From Chitinophaga pinensis (GTDB taxonomy: Bacteria; Bacteroidota; Bacteroidia; Chitinophagales; UBA10324): 32,183 bases of DNA. A program made the translations under genes and the position numbers. Under the pieces are notes generated by a model. It ran no database searches, had not been told where the DNA came from, and was given only the letters and a program-made list of their open reading frames with translations. The stretch lies in NCBI GenBank assembly GCA_945903305.1, contig CAMDOA010000031.1, positions 1 through 32,183 of the forward strand. The letters run 5' to 3'. Positions 2,092 through 7,696 of this stretch are shown in pieces (positions within the stretch are counted from its first letter, which is position 1; each line of letters begins with the position of its first letter).

Positions 2092-4470
2092 ATGAAACTA
2101 TTTTCTTCCGTTTTACTTATGTGTTTTGCAATTTTATTTGCTTCAACACAAAACACACAGGCACAATGCGCAACCGGATTTTCAGAAATAATTGTCACCA
2201 TAGTTCCCGACAATTATCCAAATGAAACCAGTTGGGATATCCGGGATGCGTTAAACAATATTGTTGTCAGTGGTACTACTAATGATGATACGATTTGTTA
2301 TGCAGCAAACAGTTGTTTACACTTTACTATTTATGATTCTTATGGCGATGGCATTTCGCCGGGTTCTTATAATGTTACACTTAACGGAAATGTGGTAGCA
2401 AGCGGCAGTGTGTTTACCTACAATGAAGTTACTTACATCAATTGCCCTCCCGGTTCAAGTTGTGGTTCCGCTTTACCGGCACTTGTTGCTACTCCATATG
2501 CAGCTGCTAATAATACCTGGTATGAATTTATACCAACCGGAAACGGAATGTATGATGTGACTACCTGCGGCATAAATACCTGCGATACTAAAATTTGGAT
2601 TTACGACCACTGCAATAATTTAACCTGGGATAACACCAACATTGGCACTGCTTACTACGATGATAATGGTTGTGGTTTTCAGGCACATGTTTCAGCCGCT
2701 TTAATTGCCGGAACATCGTACTATATCAGAATCGGTGAAGGCGCAAGTGGTTGTTCGGTTCCTGTTAACTGGATTATTAATTATGGCGGACCAATAGTTG
2801 GTTGTATGGATATATTGGCTTGCAACTACAATCCGAATGCTACGGTTGCTGATACTTCGTGCATTTATCCCGGCGACCCTGATTGTCCGAACGGGCCCGA
2901 CTTAATTGTGTTGCAAAATGTTTTTGAAAATTCATTATCAATTGGAACAGTAAATGCCACTAACTGCCAGGTTACAGAAGGTTGCTTAACCGGCTTTGGT
3001 CAAAGAACCGTTATTAATTTCACCACGCAGATAAATAATATCGGTAATCAGGATTATTACATTGGTAATGCTACTAACAATCCGGGGCAGTTTGTGTTTG
3101 GCTCTTGTCATGGTCACTGGCATTATGAAGGGTATGCCGAATATGTTTTGTATGATACTGCTGGCACTATGCTTCCCATTGGTTTTAAAAACGGATTTTG
3201 TGTATTGGACTTAACATGTTTTGGTGGCACAGCGCAGTATGGTTGCGGAAACATGGGCATCTCGGTTGATTGCGGTGATATTTACGGAGCAGGTTTGGAT
3301 TGTCAGTGGTTAGATATAACCGATGTTGATACCGGTTTTTATACCATGGCAATAAAAGTTAACTGGGACCAATCGCCCGATGCATTAGGACATTATGAAT
3401 TAGGATATGAAAATAACTGGGCGCAAGTGTGCATTCATATTTTTTACACTGCACCCGGAGTTAAAAATTTCAGCGTGGTACAAAACTGCAATCCGTTTTT
3501 TGATTGCGCAGGTACTCTATATGGCAATGCGCAACCCGATTGCAATGGAACTTGTGCCGGCACTGCAAAAATGGGCGATTTAAATACTGATACTTTACAA
3601 ACCAATACCGATGCATTAATGTATGTAAATTTTATTTTGGGCGATAGTTTAGTTCCTGCGCCATGTAATGATTTGAATGCCGATATTGATATTGATGTGT
3701 ACGATGCCGCGCTCTTAACCGGTTGCGCAAATTATGGCTCTGCCTGGCCCATGACCGGTGGAGGAACACATAACTACTGCGAATTTCCAACCGGCTTAAC
3801 TAATATTTACGACACCACTACGCTCAGCATTATTGGTGCAAATCTGGTTGATCAATACATAGATATTGGCGTTTTAAATCCTGATAACCGCGTGCTGGCT
3901 TATCAATTTTCTGTTACCGGATTAACCATTCAGGCAGTACAAAGTTTGGTTAACCCTGCAGTTTACCCAATGACACCCTCCTTTTCCATTGCTAATAATT
4001 TAATTGTGGGGTTAAGCTACATTGACAGCAGCGTGGCAAAATCGCCGGTGGTTCAACCGCTTTGCCGCATTTATTATTCTGCTACTACTGATACCGTTTG
4101 CATTGATTCCATTTATTCAATAGTGAATAATATTTTTCAGGAAGTTATTGCTGAAAAGGAAAATAATTGTTTAAGCGGAATGATCAGCGGCACCGCCCCT
4201 TCGTATGTAGAAAATGCGGCTTCGCTCTTTGCAGTACCAAACCCATCGAACGGAATATTTGATTTGCATATTCAAGTAAATAAAAAACAAGATGTGTTAG
4301 TAGAAGTTACTGATGCTACCGGAAGAATTGTTTTAGTTAATTCACTGAAAAATATTTTTGAAAACACGGTGCCACTATCCATGAATACTTATGCCGATGG
4401 CGTTTACTTTATAAATCTTAAAACTGCTAATGAAATTATTACCCGGCGAATAGTTATTATTCATCAATAA
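2092..4470 (+). CDS. Secreted lysyl-oxidase-like copper quinoprotein with T9SS sorting domain
   Basis: A 792-residue exported protein. The N-terminal signal peptide ends near the Ala-Gln at about residue 24. Then come a Cys-rich beta module with a YDSYGDGISPGSY motif, a PPC-like beta domain (about 125-230), a GCMDILACNYNPNATV module (about 237-255) and a lysyl-oxidase-like domain (about 265-455). The last shows the copper site CHGHWH (339-344), Lys366 in GFKNGFC and Tyr398 in DIYGAGLDCQW, followed by LDITDV. In animal lysyl oxidases the equivalent Lys and Tyr form the lysine tyrosylquinone cofactor. Two Asp/Asn-rich loops (DLNTDT and DLNADIDID) resemble a dockerin. The last 80 residues are a Por_Secre_tail-like T9SS signal with PNPSNG. 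I infer a surface or secreted amine oxidase. Its substrate is unknown; possibilities include matrix crosslinking or amine use. Confidence 0.85.
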   Translation: MKLFSSVLLMCFAILFASTQNTQAQCATGFSEIIVTIVPDNYPNETSWDIRDALNNIVVSGTTNDDTICYAANSCLHFTIYDSYGDGISPGSYNVTLNGNVVASGSVFTYNEVTYINCPPGSSCGSALPALVATPYAAANNTWYEFIPTGNGMYDVTTCGINTCDTKIWIYDHCNNLTWDNTNIGTAYYDDNGCGFQAHVSAALIAGTSYYIRIGEGASGCSVPVNWIINYGGPIVGCMDILACNYNPNATVADTSCIYPGDPDCPNGPDLIVLQNVFENSLSIGTVNATNCQVTEGCLTGFGQRTVINFTTQINNIGNQDYYIGNATNNPGQFVFGSCHGHWHYEGYAEYVLYDTAGTMLPIGFKNGFCVLDLTCFGGTAQYGCGNMGISVDCGDIYGAGLDCQWLDITDVDTGFYTMAIKVNWDQSPDALGHYELGYENNWAQVCIHIFYTAPGVKNFSVVQNCNPFFDCAGTLYGNAQPDCNGTCAGTAKMGDLNTDTLQTNTDALMYVNFILGDSLVPAPCNDLNADIDIDVYDAALLTGCANYGSAWPMTGGGTHNYCEFPTGLTNIYDTTTLSIIGANLVDQYIDIGVLNPDNRVLAYQFSVTGLTIQAVQSLVNPAVYPMTPSFSIANNLIVGLSYIDSSVAKSPVVQPLCRIYYSATTDTVCIDSIYSIVNNIFQEVIAEKENNCLSGMISGTAPSYVENAASLFAVPNPSNGIFDLHIQVNKKQDVLVEVTDATGRIVLVNSLKNIFENTVPLSMNTYADGVYFINLKTANEIITRRIVIIHQ

Positions 4471-4485
4471 AAAAAAATACTGAAA

Positions 4486-4521
4486 GCCACGATGGTTCGT
4501 TGTAACGGTCGTGGCTTTTTT
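4486..4521 (+). terminator. Intrinsic terminator after the LOX-like gene
   Basis: GCCACGA (4486-4492) pairs perfectly with TCGTGGC (4509-4515) around a 16-base loop, and six T follow at once. It sits 15 bases after the stop of the LOX-like gene and 40 bases before the TonB-C gene, which suggests separate transcripts. Confidence 0.8.
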
Positions 4522-4560
4522 ATTTTTACAAAATGAATTTTAATTACTAAATCCGGAAAC

Positions 4561-5320: not shown

Positions 5321-6586
5321 TTAAATTTTAATTCCAATCACGAGCACATCATCTACCTGTTCGTTGGCTCCCTTCCAATTGTTAAAGAACTGGTGCAACC
5401 GGTTTTTTTGTTCGGTCATATTTAAGTGCTGAATCGATAACAACAATTCTTTAAACTTTGCGGTCATTATCTTTTTAAAATATTCGCCGCCAAATTGGTC
5501 GGCATATCCATCAGTGGAAAAATATAGGGTATCGTTTTGCTGTACATCTAATAAATGATTTGTGTAATTGTTGCTGCGCAGAATCTGAGTTCCGCCAATA
5601 GGAAATTTATCAGCCTTTATAATTTCCATCTCATTATTCCGTATGAGCCAAAGCGGTCGGTTGGCTCCGGCATACTCCAATTTGTTTTCGGTTAAATTGA
5701 AAGCGCAGATAGATACATCCATCCCATCATTCGATTCACTTTCAGTTTGTCGCAACGATTCAATAACCGCCACATGCAACTGATCTAAAATAATGGATGG
5801 TTGTGTAATTCCTTTTTCAATAATAATCCGGTTCAACAATGAGCTGCCAATCATACTCATGAATGCGCCTGCCACACCATGCCCTGTGCAATCGGCAGTC
5901 ACAATAATTGACACATCATCTTTTAAAAAGAATGCATAAAAATCGCCGCTCACAATATCTTTCGGAAAAAATAAAATGAAGGAGTCGATAAATACCGAAG
6001 CAATTTTATTTATATCAGGAAGAATGGCATTCTGAATTCGTTGCGCGTAAATAATGCTATCGGTTATCTCCTTGTTTTTTATTTCCAGCTCTTTCGATTT
6101 ATTGTTTAGTTCCAATGTGCGCTCATCAACCAATCGTAATAATTCCTGCTCGCGCGATTTTAAAATATTAATGGTGTTGTTGTTTTGTTCCCGCAAGCGT
6201 TTTATCAGCAGCGAAATAATTTTATTGTAAATCTCCGGATGCTGTTTCAGCAGCTTAACAAAAACTCCGCGACCAATGCCAATTAATTCCACCTCATTCA
6301 AAGCTGAAACCGACATGGACCTTGGTGCCGAATCGAACAAAAAGAACTCGCCGAAATAAGTACCCGATTCAACCGTAGCAAGTATGTGATCTTTATCGTG
6401 AATTTTTGCTTTACCCGAAACCAACACAAACATTTTATCACCTGATTCTCCCTTGCTGATTATTAAATCATCTTGCTTAAAAGAATGAATAGTAAGTTCA
6501 GGAATAATTTCCTTTAACATATCCATAGAAACCAAACTAAAAATATCGGTTTGATGCAGTATGCCGGCTAAATAATCAGTTGTCAT
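5321..6586 (-). CDS. Cyclic-nucleotide-binding domain / SpoIIE-type PP2C phosphatase
   Basis: A soluble protein of 421 residues from the ATG at 6586; a GTG three codons upstream is an alternative start. Residues about 10-130 form a cyclic-nucleotide-binding (CAP/Crp-type) domain with ISKGESGDKMFVLVSGKA and a cassette FGEFFLFDSAPRSMSV. A coiled coil (about 135-190) leads into a SpoIIE/PP2C serine phosphatase with PKDIVSGDFYAFF, TADCTGHGVAGAFMS, DGMDVSICAF, STDGYADQFGG and a final DDVLVIGIKI. The metal-binding aspartates of PP2C are present. The gene is divergent from siaB- and siaC-like genes. I infer that it takes the SiaA phosphatase role, dephosphorylating the SiaC-like protein, with a nucleotide or another ligand replacing the membrane sensor of SiaA. 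The cassette resembles the ligand-binding arginine region, but which nucleotide binds, if any, cannot be read. Confidence 0.88.
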   Translation of the reverse strand: MTTDYLAGILHQTDIFSLVSMDMLKEIIPELTIHSFKQDDLIISKGESGDKMFVLVSGKAKIHDKDHILATVESGTYFGEFFLFDSAPRSMSVSALNEVELIGIGRGVFVKLLKQHPEIYNKIISLLIKRLREQNNNTINILKSREQELLRLVDERTLELNNKSKELEIKNKEITDSIIYAQRIQNAILPDINKIASVFIDSFILFFPKDIVSGDFYAFFLKDDVSIIVTADCTGHGVAGAFMSMIGSSLLNRIIIEKGITQPSIILDQLHVAVIESLRQTESESNDGMDVSICAFNLTENKLEYAGANRPLWLIRNNEMEIIKADKFPIGGTQILRSNNYTNHLLDVQQNDTLYFSTDGYADQFGGEYFKKIMTAKFKELLLSIQHLNMTEQKNRLHQFFNNWKGANEQVDDVLVIGIKI

Positions 6587-6703
6587 TTTATGCACGCAAT
6601 ATATTTAGTGAAATGCAGATAATTTCTTTCATATAAAATCTTTATACTTTTTTTCCTATTGATAAAAACTACTTCGTGAAAATAAATGAATGACAGATTT
6701 ATT

Positions 6704-6711
6704 TACATTTG
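6704..6711 (+). promoter_or_regulatory. Candidate -7 element (TANNTTTG) of the siaB-siaC operon
   Basis: TACATTTG fits the Bacteroidota -7 consensus and lies 16 bases upstream of the TTG at 6728. If used, transcription would begin roughly 5-10 bases before that TTG. This favours the TTG start over the first in-frame ATG at 6770. Confidence 0.45.
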
Positions 6712-6727
6712 AAAAATTAAAAATCAT

Positions 6728-7294
6728 TTGTTGAACACTATAATTGATATCACTGCTTTTTATGCTGAAATGGAAAAGGACGATGTCATCCTTTCTTACA
6801 AAGGAGATATTACTCAGGAATTGCTGACCGCAGTTTATCCGATTATTGAAACCAGGTTAGAGAAGGAAGTAGAAGATTCAAAACGCAGAAAAAAAATATT
6901 CCATGTGCTGGTCGAGTGCTTGCAAAATGTGTTTCATCATATGGAATCATTTAAAAGCAATATTGCTTCTGATAAGATGAATGGAAATGTTGGGGGATTA
7001 TTTATGATGGCGCGTGGCGAAGAAAATTCATACAGAGTATTTACCGGTAATTTTATTCTGAATGAGAAACTCGAAGTATTAAAGCAGCGCATTGATAAAG
7101 TGAATGCCATGAGCGCAACGGAACTGAAAGCTTTTTACCTTGGCAGTTTAAACACATCAGAATTATCAGAAAAGGGAGGCGCCGGATTGGGTATTATTGA
7201 TATGGCGCGCAAATCGGAAAACAAACTGGAATATCAATTTCATTCGCTGACCGAAACCTATTCATTCTTTACGCTTGCAGTTAAAATAAATTGA
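6728..7294 (+). CDS. siaB: SiaB-family protein kinase (DUF6272, HATPase-like)
   Basis: A 188-residue protein resembling SiaB, the small GHKL/HATPase-type kinase that phosphorylates SiaC on Thr/Ser in the Pseudomonas SiaABCD pathway. Visible features are EKDDVILSYKGDITQELL (16-33), a helix with the N-box-like HVLVECLQNVFHHM, and the glycine motif EKGGAGLGIIDMARKS (G-x-G ATP-lid type). The start is taken as TTG at 6728, because a candidate promoter lies just upstream and the family usually has residues before the EMEKDD stretch. The first ATG is at 6770, which would give 174 residues. The siaC-like gene follows 21 bases later, so the pair is an operon. The opposing phosphatase is the divergent upstream gene. 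The family call is firm; kinase activity is inferred from the family. Confidence 0.85.
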   Translation: MLNTIIDITAFYAEMEKDDVILSYKGDITQELLTAVYPIIETRLEKEVEDSKRRKKIFHVLVECLQNVFHHMESFKSNIASDKMNGNVGGLFMMARGEENSYRVFTGNFILNEKLEVLKQRIDKVNAMSATELKAFYLGSLNTSELSEKGGAGLGIIDMARKSENKLEYQFHSLTETYSFFTLAVKIN

Positions 7295-7315
7295 AACAGA
7301 AACAGAATAATAATC

Positions 7316-7696
7316 ATGAACGAAAATTTAATTATCGAAGGATCGACAAAAACGCCAACTGTAAAATTTTATTTCGAAACAGGTGCCATTGAAATTTCGG
7401 GGAAATCAATTCCTGAAAACTCTATTGGTTTTTATCAGCCCATTTATAGTTGGATTGATAATTATGCAAACAAGCCATCAGCAAAAACAGAAATTAAAAT
7501 TCAACTGGAATATTTTAATACCAGTTCATCAAAATGTTTGCTGGATATTTTCAAAAAATTTGAAGCAATAAAAAAATCGGGTAAGAGTGCTATTGAAGTG
7601 TTGTGGCATTACGAAGCCGATGATGAAGATATGATGGAGGCCGGCGACGATTATAATTCGTTAGTGGATTTAACTTTTAGATTGATAAAAATTTAA
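7316..7696 (+). CDS. siaC: SiaC-family regulatory phosphoprotein (DUF1987)
   Basis: A 126-residue soluble protein of the SiaC/DUF1987 family, which resembles anti-anti-sigma (STAS-like) proteins. The signature LEYFNTSSSK has Thr69 aligned, by position and context, with the phosphorylated Thr68 of Pseudomonas SiaC; Ser70-72 are further hydroxyl candidates. The typical WHYEADDEDMMEAG segment and a terminal FRLIKI are present. In Pseudomonas, unphosphorylated SiaC activates the diguanylate cyclase SiaD. No GGDEF gene lies in this window, so the output partner here is unknown. It is the second gene of an operon with siaB (21-base gap), and the phosphatase of the switch is divergent upstream. Confidence 0.88.
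   Translation: MNENLIIEGSTKTPTVKFYFETGAIEISGKSIPENSIGFYQPIYSWIDNYANKPSAKTEIKIQLEYFNTSSSKCLLDIFKKFEAIKKSGKSAIEVLWHYEADDEDMMEAGDDYNSLVDLTFRLIKI

Follow-up and report, generated by a model that had tools for sequence, protein, structure and literature searches.

The window analysed here, a contig of 32,183 nucleotides from Chitinophaga pinensis (assembly GCA_945903305.1, contig CAMDOA010000031.1), contains at positions 2092–4470 an open reading frame (ORF) whose product is a true member of the lysyl oxidase (LOX) family. In animals, LOX starts the cross-linking of collagen. The window protein is very probably a surface amine oxidase of this family that is exported by the Sec pathway and then by the type IX secretion system (T9SS), and the protein family to which it belongs, common among bacteria of this group, is little described. 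The features of the gene and its product are the following.

2092–4470, + strand: ORF of the LOX family with predicted T9SS export, 792 residues from ATG (ORF translation, Pfam and TIGR profiles)
2092–2166, + strand: putative N-terminal signal peptide, residues 1–25
2167–2442, + strand: N-terminal β-domain with invariant cysteines, residues 26–117 (family alignment, model)
2443–2799, + strand: β-sandwich with a fold like that of the ColG collagen-binding (PPC-type) domain, residues 118–236 (model compared with 5iku)
2884–3501, + strand: LOX catalytic domain with the ten LOX cysteines, residues 265–470 (profiles, PDB matches, model)
3106–3123, + strand: CHGHWH, the copper-site residues His340, His342 and His344 with Cys339 (codons read, alignment)
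3187–3189, + strand: Lys366 in GFKNGFC, the cofactor lysine, equivalent to Lys653 of LOXL2 (codon read, alignment)
3283–3285, + strand: Tyr398 in DIYGAGLDCQW, the cofactor tyrosine, equivalent to Tyr689 of LOXL2 (codon read, alignment)
3553–3750, + strand: dockerin-like repeat with two Ca-loop-like motifs and two helices, residues 488–553 (sequence pattern, model)
3784–4200, + strand: cohesin-like β-sandwich, residues 565–703 (model compared with cohesins)
4237–4458, + strand: T9SS type A C-terminal sorting domain, residues 716–789 (PF18962, TIGR04183)

The preliminary description of this DNA had proposed a bacterial LOX-like protein and suggested a search with the PF01186 profile. The profile matches residues 299–448 with E = 2.3e-26 and 93.1 bits against a curated cut-off of 20.4. 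When the single sequence was used as the query, human LOXL2 (5ze3) was the only PDB match at E ≤0.1 (E = 1.5e-18), and this match strengthened to E = 2.6e-35 with a profile of 54 full-length proteins (window protein included), whose alignment reaches back as far as PDLV, the motif with which the domain begins. The model of the catalytic domain has a predicted local distance difference test score (pLDDT) of 91.3 and superimposes on 5ze3 (5ze3_B) in VIA-align with a Z score of 20.9 and a root mean square deviation (r.m.s.d.) of 2.7 Å over 191 residues; the runner-up has a Z score of 7.9. Both the sequence and the modeled fold bear out the proposal.

The single-sequence alignment with LOXL2 pairs CHGHWH with CHRHYH, GFKNGFC with GHKASFC, and GDIYGAGLDCQW with WDMYRHDIDCQW. 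His340, His342, and His344 align with His626, His628, and His630 of LOXL2, Lys366 aligns with Lys653, and Tyr398 with Tyr689 (LOXL2 residue numbers as given in the available portion of PMC9694262). The intact Lys-Tyr pair and the His motif are thus at the residues first assigned to them, and the spacing of 32 residues between Lys366 and Tyr398, as had been counted, compares with 36 in LOXL2. In LOXL2, the copper histidines are essential for the lysine tyrosylquinone (LTQ) cofactor (PMC9694262, section 2.8 and Table 3). No variation is seen in the His triad, the Cys that precedes it, the Lys, or the Tyr across all 50 aligned LOX domains, which comprise the window domain and 49 of 80 loci from a scan with two peptide patterns around the Lys and Tyr; these 80 are the best of 547 confirmed stretches. 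The catalytic motifs occur in all 80 loci, partly by construction, the Tyr of one (L151) having been missed by the pattern and found by eye. A second set of loci (L001–L055, the window's own included) was selected by the Pfam profile and is therefore free of peptide-pattern selection. The His triad, Lys, and Tyr are present in 55 of these 55, 48 of them scored by pattern and printed sequence and the seven that the pattern missed (L005, L026, L027, L028, L032, L033, and L035) by inspection. The distance between Lys366 and Tyr398 in the model is uninformative as a test because the two residues are 16.6 Å apart in the crystal of the LOXL2 precursor itself (PMC9694262); this LTQ-free precursor is the only solved LOX-domain structure that was found.

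The T9SS tail that had been recognized at the C terminus (residues 716–789) matches both TIGR04183 (E = 1.1e-10, 41.4 bits, cut-off 23) and PF18962 (E = 2.5e-11, 44.1 bits, cut-off 27). In the model, residues 706–792 resemble many Ig-like domains, the tail of PorU among them (Z score 10.2). A search of the host genome limited to PorU and SprA found both the PorU sortase (1341 bits) and SprA (2565 bits) above their cut-offs, and the genome encodes no fewer than 150 T9SS tails, a figure that counts those scored among 353 candidates. The sorting tail, together with export components encoded by the same genome, supports the prediction that the window protein is T9SS type A cargo. The putative Sec signal peptide was called by eye from the hydrophobic N terminus and from helix 2–18 in the model; it ends at the point where the family consensus reads ...AQC, and Cys26 is invariant across the full-length family alignment.

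The LOX family is established as copper enzymes with an LTQ cofactor that catalyze the oxidative deamination of lysyl residues (PMC9694262), and the available part of a report on an archaeal homologue describes amine oxidase activity with H2O2 release and a broad range of substrates (PMC6452851). In the window protein, passage through Sec and then the type IX system would lead to display on the cell surface. PorU functions in the removal of sorting tails and would cleave off that of the window protein. The three histidines would bind Cu(II), copper and O2 would convert Tyr398 to a quinone, and Lys366 would trap the quinone to form LTQ, which would then act on primary amines, either free or as peptidyl lysine, to yield aldehydes by deamination, with release of NH3 and H2O2. 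Most likely the protein is a surface amine oxidase that generates an aldehyde together with H2O2. As to its role, the most likely one is that it modifies or cross-links proteins of the surface or of the extracellular matrix; cross-linking, taken by itself, is a tentative assignment that we hold to be possible and no more than that, and amine oxidation is the safer functional statement.

Several observations weigh against this reading. The auxiliary residues His623 and His652 of LOXL2 are replaced by Gly337 and Phe365 in the window protein, an operon or partner gene was considered and rejected as neighbors recur only in close relatives, and the search for a substrate, which examined collagen alone, gave no candidate. 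Collagen is unlikely as the substrate because the own genome contains no match to the collagen repeat PF01391, and this substrate was rejected as a general rule. At least one match to PF01391 was found in one of six genus genomes; in the order, among the 69 genomes with a strong LOX (≥60 bits), 36 have collagen repeats, as do 145 of 327 others (Fisher p = 0.29, genome lists compiled by hand).

It is quite possible, if somewhat less than probable, that the protein is an active LOX with a job other than cross-linking, namely a broad surface amine oxidase that yields NH3 for nutrition or H2O2 against competitors. The archaeal enzyme acts on a variety of primary amines, on several aminoglycosides, and on polymyxin (PMC6452851), and both the lack of a partner gene beyond close relatives and the absence of any sign of a collagen substrate are in keeping with such a function. 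In contrast, the large multidomain layout, to which 54 members align from end to end, suggests that the target is fixed and that the enzyme does not diffuse freely, without being decisive.

A lysine-poor secretome as a footprint of LOX action was also considered, with mixed results. The mature window protein contains 1.0% Lys (7 in 679 residues) as compared with 6.6% in the neighbor proteins of the 80 loci, and it is lower than the T9SS cargo of its own genome (mean 2.2% in 25 of 30 loci, L167–L196); T9SS proteins are Lys-poor in general. A comparison of T9SS proteins from seven genomes, which differ in G+C, was mixed: the Lys content is 2.2, 2.2, and 1.4% in those with a strong LOX and 3.6, 3.5, 3.9, and 1.4% in those without. 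Lys content in the own genome departs from that in two relatives (p = 0.0002), and genome f62 also differs (p = 0.003), whereas f3 shows no difference (p = 0.86). T9SS loci that lacked a usable ORF (5 of 30 and 3 of 15) were dropped.

The catalytic domain is accompanied by accessory domains that may anchor the enzyme at its target, namely the PPC-like, dockerin-like, and cohesin-like parts. The full-length model has a pLDDT of 84.8 and a predicted template modeling score of 0.57, and the relative placement of the domains in it is uncertain. Neither the N-terminal β-domain (residues 26–117) nor the PPC-like part (residues 118–236) has a Pfam match. Modeled residues 118–231 superimpose on the ColG collagen-binding domain 5iku with a Z score of 11.6 and an r.m.s.d. 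of 2.7 Å over 103 residues, a fold that we take to be PPC-type and that need not bind collagen; a sequence search with this part gave weak matches to hemagglutinin components (best E = 0.009), which were set aside. The dockerin-like stretch of the preliminary description stands as a pattern of two 12-residue loops, DLNTDTLQTNTD and DLNADIDIDVYD, and is not matched by the Pfam profile Dockerin_1 at E 0.01. Residues 574–700 of the model resemble cohesins with Z scores of about 11 (6kgf: Z score 11.3, r.m.s.d. 2.7 Å over 119 residues), and by sequence the cohesin-like part has no convincing match, the single match (E = 0.46) being to another protein.

Docking of the enzyme through its dockerin-like and cohesin-like parts into a multi-protein surface complex, in the manner of a cellulosome, would be in line with the cohesin folds and with the Ca-loop-like motifs, which occur in pairs, with variations, in the family members inspected (18 of 54); the family profile also matches PDB dockerins, weakly (E = 0.018–0.03). 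We consider such docking unlikely. Dockerin_1 matches just 6 of 54 members at E ≤0.01, the window protein not among them, the cohesin-like part lacks convincing sequence relatives, and the two parts may simply pack together within one chain.

The loss of the two auxiliary histidines would also fit a LOX fold that is catalytically inactive and retained as a structural or binding module, but this is very improbable given the invariance of the His triad, Lys, and Tyr described above and a catalytic domain that is the slowest-changing part of the protein, with the lowest nonsynonymous substitution rate (dN) among four regions in all three comparisons made with members of the genus. The synonymous rate is saturated in these comparisons, so their ratio is rough or undefined. 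In LOXL2, the Gln mutants of His623 and His652 retain 21 and 39% of kcat/Km, an activity that is lowered and not abolished (PMC9694262, Table 3), and His is found at position 365 in 5 of the 50 aligned domains, all from relatives. Decay of the window copy was rejected: Asp393 departs from the majority Gly in a column that is variable (35 Gly and 10 Gln of 50).

The LOX domain of the window protein has ten cysteines (residues 292, 298, 339, 370, 376, 385, 394, 404, 447, and 466) that are invariant across the 50 aligned domains, apart from one gap. Ten cysteines are conserved across the human LOX family, according to the available portion of PMC9180022, and all have counterparts in the window protein, eight by alignment and 447 and 466 (LOXL2 732 and 746) by order alone. 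The disulfide map published for LOXL2 (573–625, 579–695, 657–673, and 663–685) conflicts with that from native bovine LOX (573–579, 625–673, 657–663, and 685–695 in LOXL2 numbering), and disulfide 732–746 is common to the two (PMC9180022, Table 1). Divergent bacterial and phage LOX domains have lost cysteines pairwise, in five patterns (window numbering; loci L026, L027, L028, L153, L154, L165, and L166).

Locus L026: 370 and 385 lost
Loci L027 and L028: 370, 385, 298, and 404 lost
Phage LOX: 292, 339, 376, and 394 lost
Gemmatirosa LOX: 298, 404, 376, and 394 lost
Streptomyces LOX (two sequences): 370 and 385 only kept

The comparison covers eight cysteines (four pairs), with the fifth pair outside it, and the patterns are a sample of strong PF01186 matches and not a census. 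The states of paired cysteines are concordant in 20 of 20 cases for the LOXL2 map, 6 of 20 for the bovine LOX map, and 4 of 20 for the minor LOXL2 set. Among the 105 possible pairings of eight cysteines, the LOXL2 map alone scores 20, and two others score 18. For one pairing specified in advance, the chance is 1.3e-5 provided that the patterns are independent, an assumption weakened by the fact that L026 and L027/L028 share one family of genomes. In divergent forms, 370 and 385 are either both present or both absent in all 45 loci (three places counted twice); two of the loci, which are the same place, lack both residues. A point against the LOXL2 map is that divergent forms lacking 339 and 404 retain two N-terminal cysteines; if these are 292 and 298, another pairing must hold there. 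The N-terminal part of the divergent forms aligned too poorly to be counted, and the N-terminal cysteine states in the comparison were entered by eye. Judged from sequence, the pairwise losses speak for the LOXL2 map over the bovine LOX map and so bear on the published disagreement between them. The disulfides predicted for the window protein are 292–339, 298–404, 370–385, 376–394, and 447–466. LOX enzymes have been implicated in fibrosis and tumor spread, and a large bacterial family that has the same ten cysteines is a source of many natural variants for structural studies.

Comparison with human LOXL2 (5ze3) shows a shared whole-domain fold, copper triad, Lys/Tyr pair, cysteines, and PDLV start. 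Unlike the window protein with its T9SS, dockerin-like, and cohesin-like parts, LOXL2 has SRCR domains, and the two proteins also differ at His623 and His652 and in the Lys-Tyr spacing, as described above. The layout had been called little described. In 2015, Grau-Bove et al. (PMC4448552) named Bacteroidetes as a LOX-bearing clade and reported that the His, Lys, and Tyr are conserved; it is the T9SS-exported multidomain layout for which no publication was found in the open-access literature searched and which is apparently undescribed. Prokaryotic LOX are mostly simple in architecture according to the available part of that paper (PMC4448552), in contrast to the predicted multidomain T9SS cargo of the window, a comparison that excludes the three exceptions given there. 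The archaeal HTU-LOX is likewise prokaryotic and is active after refolding with Cu (PMC6452851); compared by description only, it differs in having an N-terminal hydrophobic signal peptide and no other domains named in the portion of the report available (PMC6452851). The family prompts one to ask what is cross-linked or oxidized at a bacterial surface.

The relatives align with the window protein over the full length. The alignment of 54 proteins consists of the window protein and 53 of 73 complete proteins of ≤960 residues (20, mainly near-duplicates by eye, were omitted), and at E ≤0.01 PF01186 matches 54 of them, TIGR04183 53, and PF18962 52. Identity between the window protein and the loci compared is 37–75% over 502–825 aligned columns. 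With the own genome counted in each case, PF01186 occurs in 4 of 395 genomes sampled across the phylum, 39 of 99 genomes of relatives, and 98 of 396 genomes of the order; window-type matches (≥60 bits) are found in 69 of those 396 (hand count). The pattern scan of named genomes matched at least 586 stretches, of which 547 were confirmed, and the best 80 are by title 75 Bacteroidota, four Sphingomonadales, and one given as "bacterium" only. A further 40 stretches were drawn, one of which (L318) had no pattern match. Three loci (L106, L110, and L139) have two LOX genes each.

Each of the six genus genomes searched has one strong window-type PF01186 match and one divergent, weak match. The divergent LOX of the own genome (947 residues, G000:C2:6260-9103, L072) shares with the window protein PF01186, the His triad, Lys, Tyr, and a T9SS tail of its own. 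It differs in its score of only 26.6 bits, in the lack of a Cys before the His triad, and in an N-terminal LOX domain followed by Ig-like repeats.

In BLASTP comparisons with LOXL2, window-type domains score 67–109 bits, LOX from a phage contig 78, Gemmatirosa LOX 56, Streptomyces plasmid LOX 54–55, and divergent Bacteroidota forms 32–39. A tree of 34 domains places the window type in one clade (93/88). LOXL2 adjoins this clade (84/80, which is not strong, with long branches), joining it before the phage, Gemmatimonadota, Streptomyces, and divergent forms. The tree says little on the origin of animal LOX because LOXL2 is its sole animal sequence, and it contains no myxobacterial, fungal, or archaeal LOX. 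We regard as quite improbable the broader proposal that a surface LOX is widespread in Bacteroidota, where it forms allysine cross-links in the extracellular protein matrix of the bacteria themselves, and that among prokaryotic branches the T9SS-borne family with ten cysteines is closest to the animal enzyme, perhaps near the donor.

The phage LOX (L153:4821-5450) is on a contig filed as viral (IMG/VR IMGVR_UViG_3300022562_001652, 113,815 bases). It is a compact domain of 209 residues (PF01186, 98.7 bits) with the His triad, Lys, and Tyr, its neighbors include SbcC/SbcD-like, uracil-DNA-glycosylase, and RusA-like genes, and from these sequence features it appears to be a phage-encoded lysyl oxidase. 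Phage records gave no match, and two scans of viral contigs gave this place alone.

The gene downstream of the LOX gene encodes a TonB-C protein, and one feature lies between the two.

4482–4519, + strand: hairpin (12 + 3 base pairs) with a T run after it, a likely terminator (folding)

The region 4470–4530 folds with −25 kcal/mol (z = −7.0); a consensus terminator scan limited to loops of 3–8 did not list the hairpin. This strong hairpin makes it probable that the LOX gene is transcribed apart from the TonB-C gene. A σ70 scan gave nine promoter-like sites, fewer than the mean of 13.5 in shuffled sequence, and no convincing promoter of the Bacteroidota type was found by eye. Among five genus stretches, the TonB-C gene is present in all five and a GH3-like gene in three; L056 and L060 have no GH3-like gene within at least 5.9 kb upstream. 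Outside the genus, neither neighbor was found in any compared stretch, and the sole other neighbor matches there are SiaC (37% identity) in L132 and EamA in L151. Among the 454 neighbor proteins of the 80 loci, the largest of the 14 clusters listed span 8 of 80 loci. Elsewhere in the window, positions 152–1642 encode a GH3-family protein that resembles the lyso-ornithine lipid synthetase OlsH (400 bits against a cut-off of 620). Positions 5321–7696 hold a SiaA/SiaB/SiaC-like phosphorylation module, in which the SiaA-like phosphatase has an N-terminal cyclic-nucleotide-binding domain and covers the last part of the SiaA model alone (379–656 of 658).

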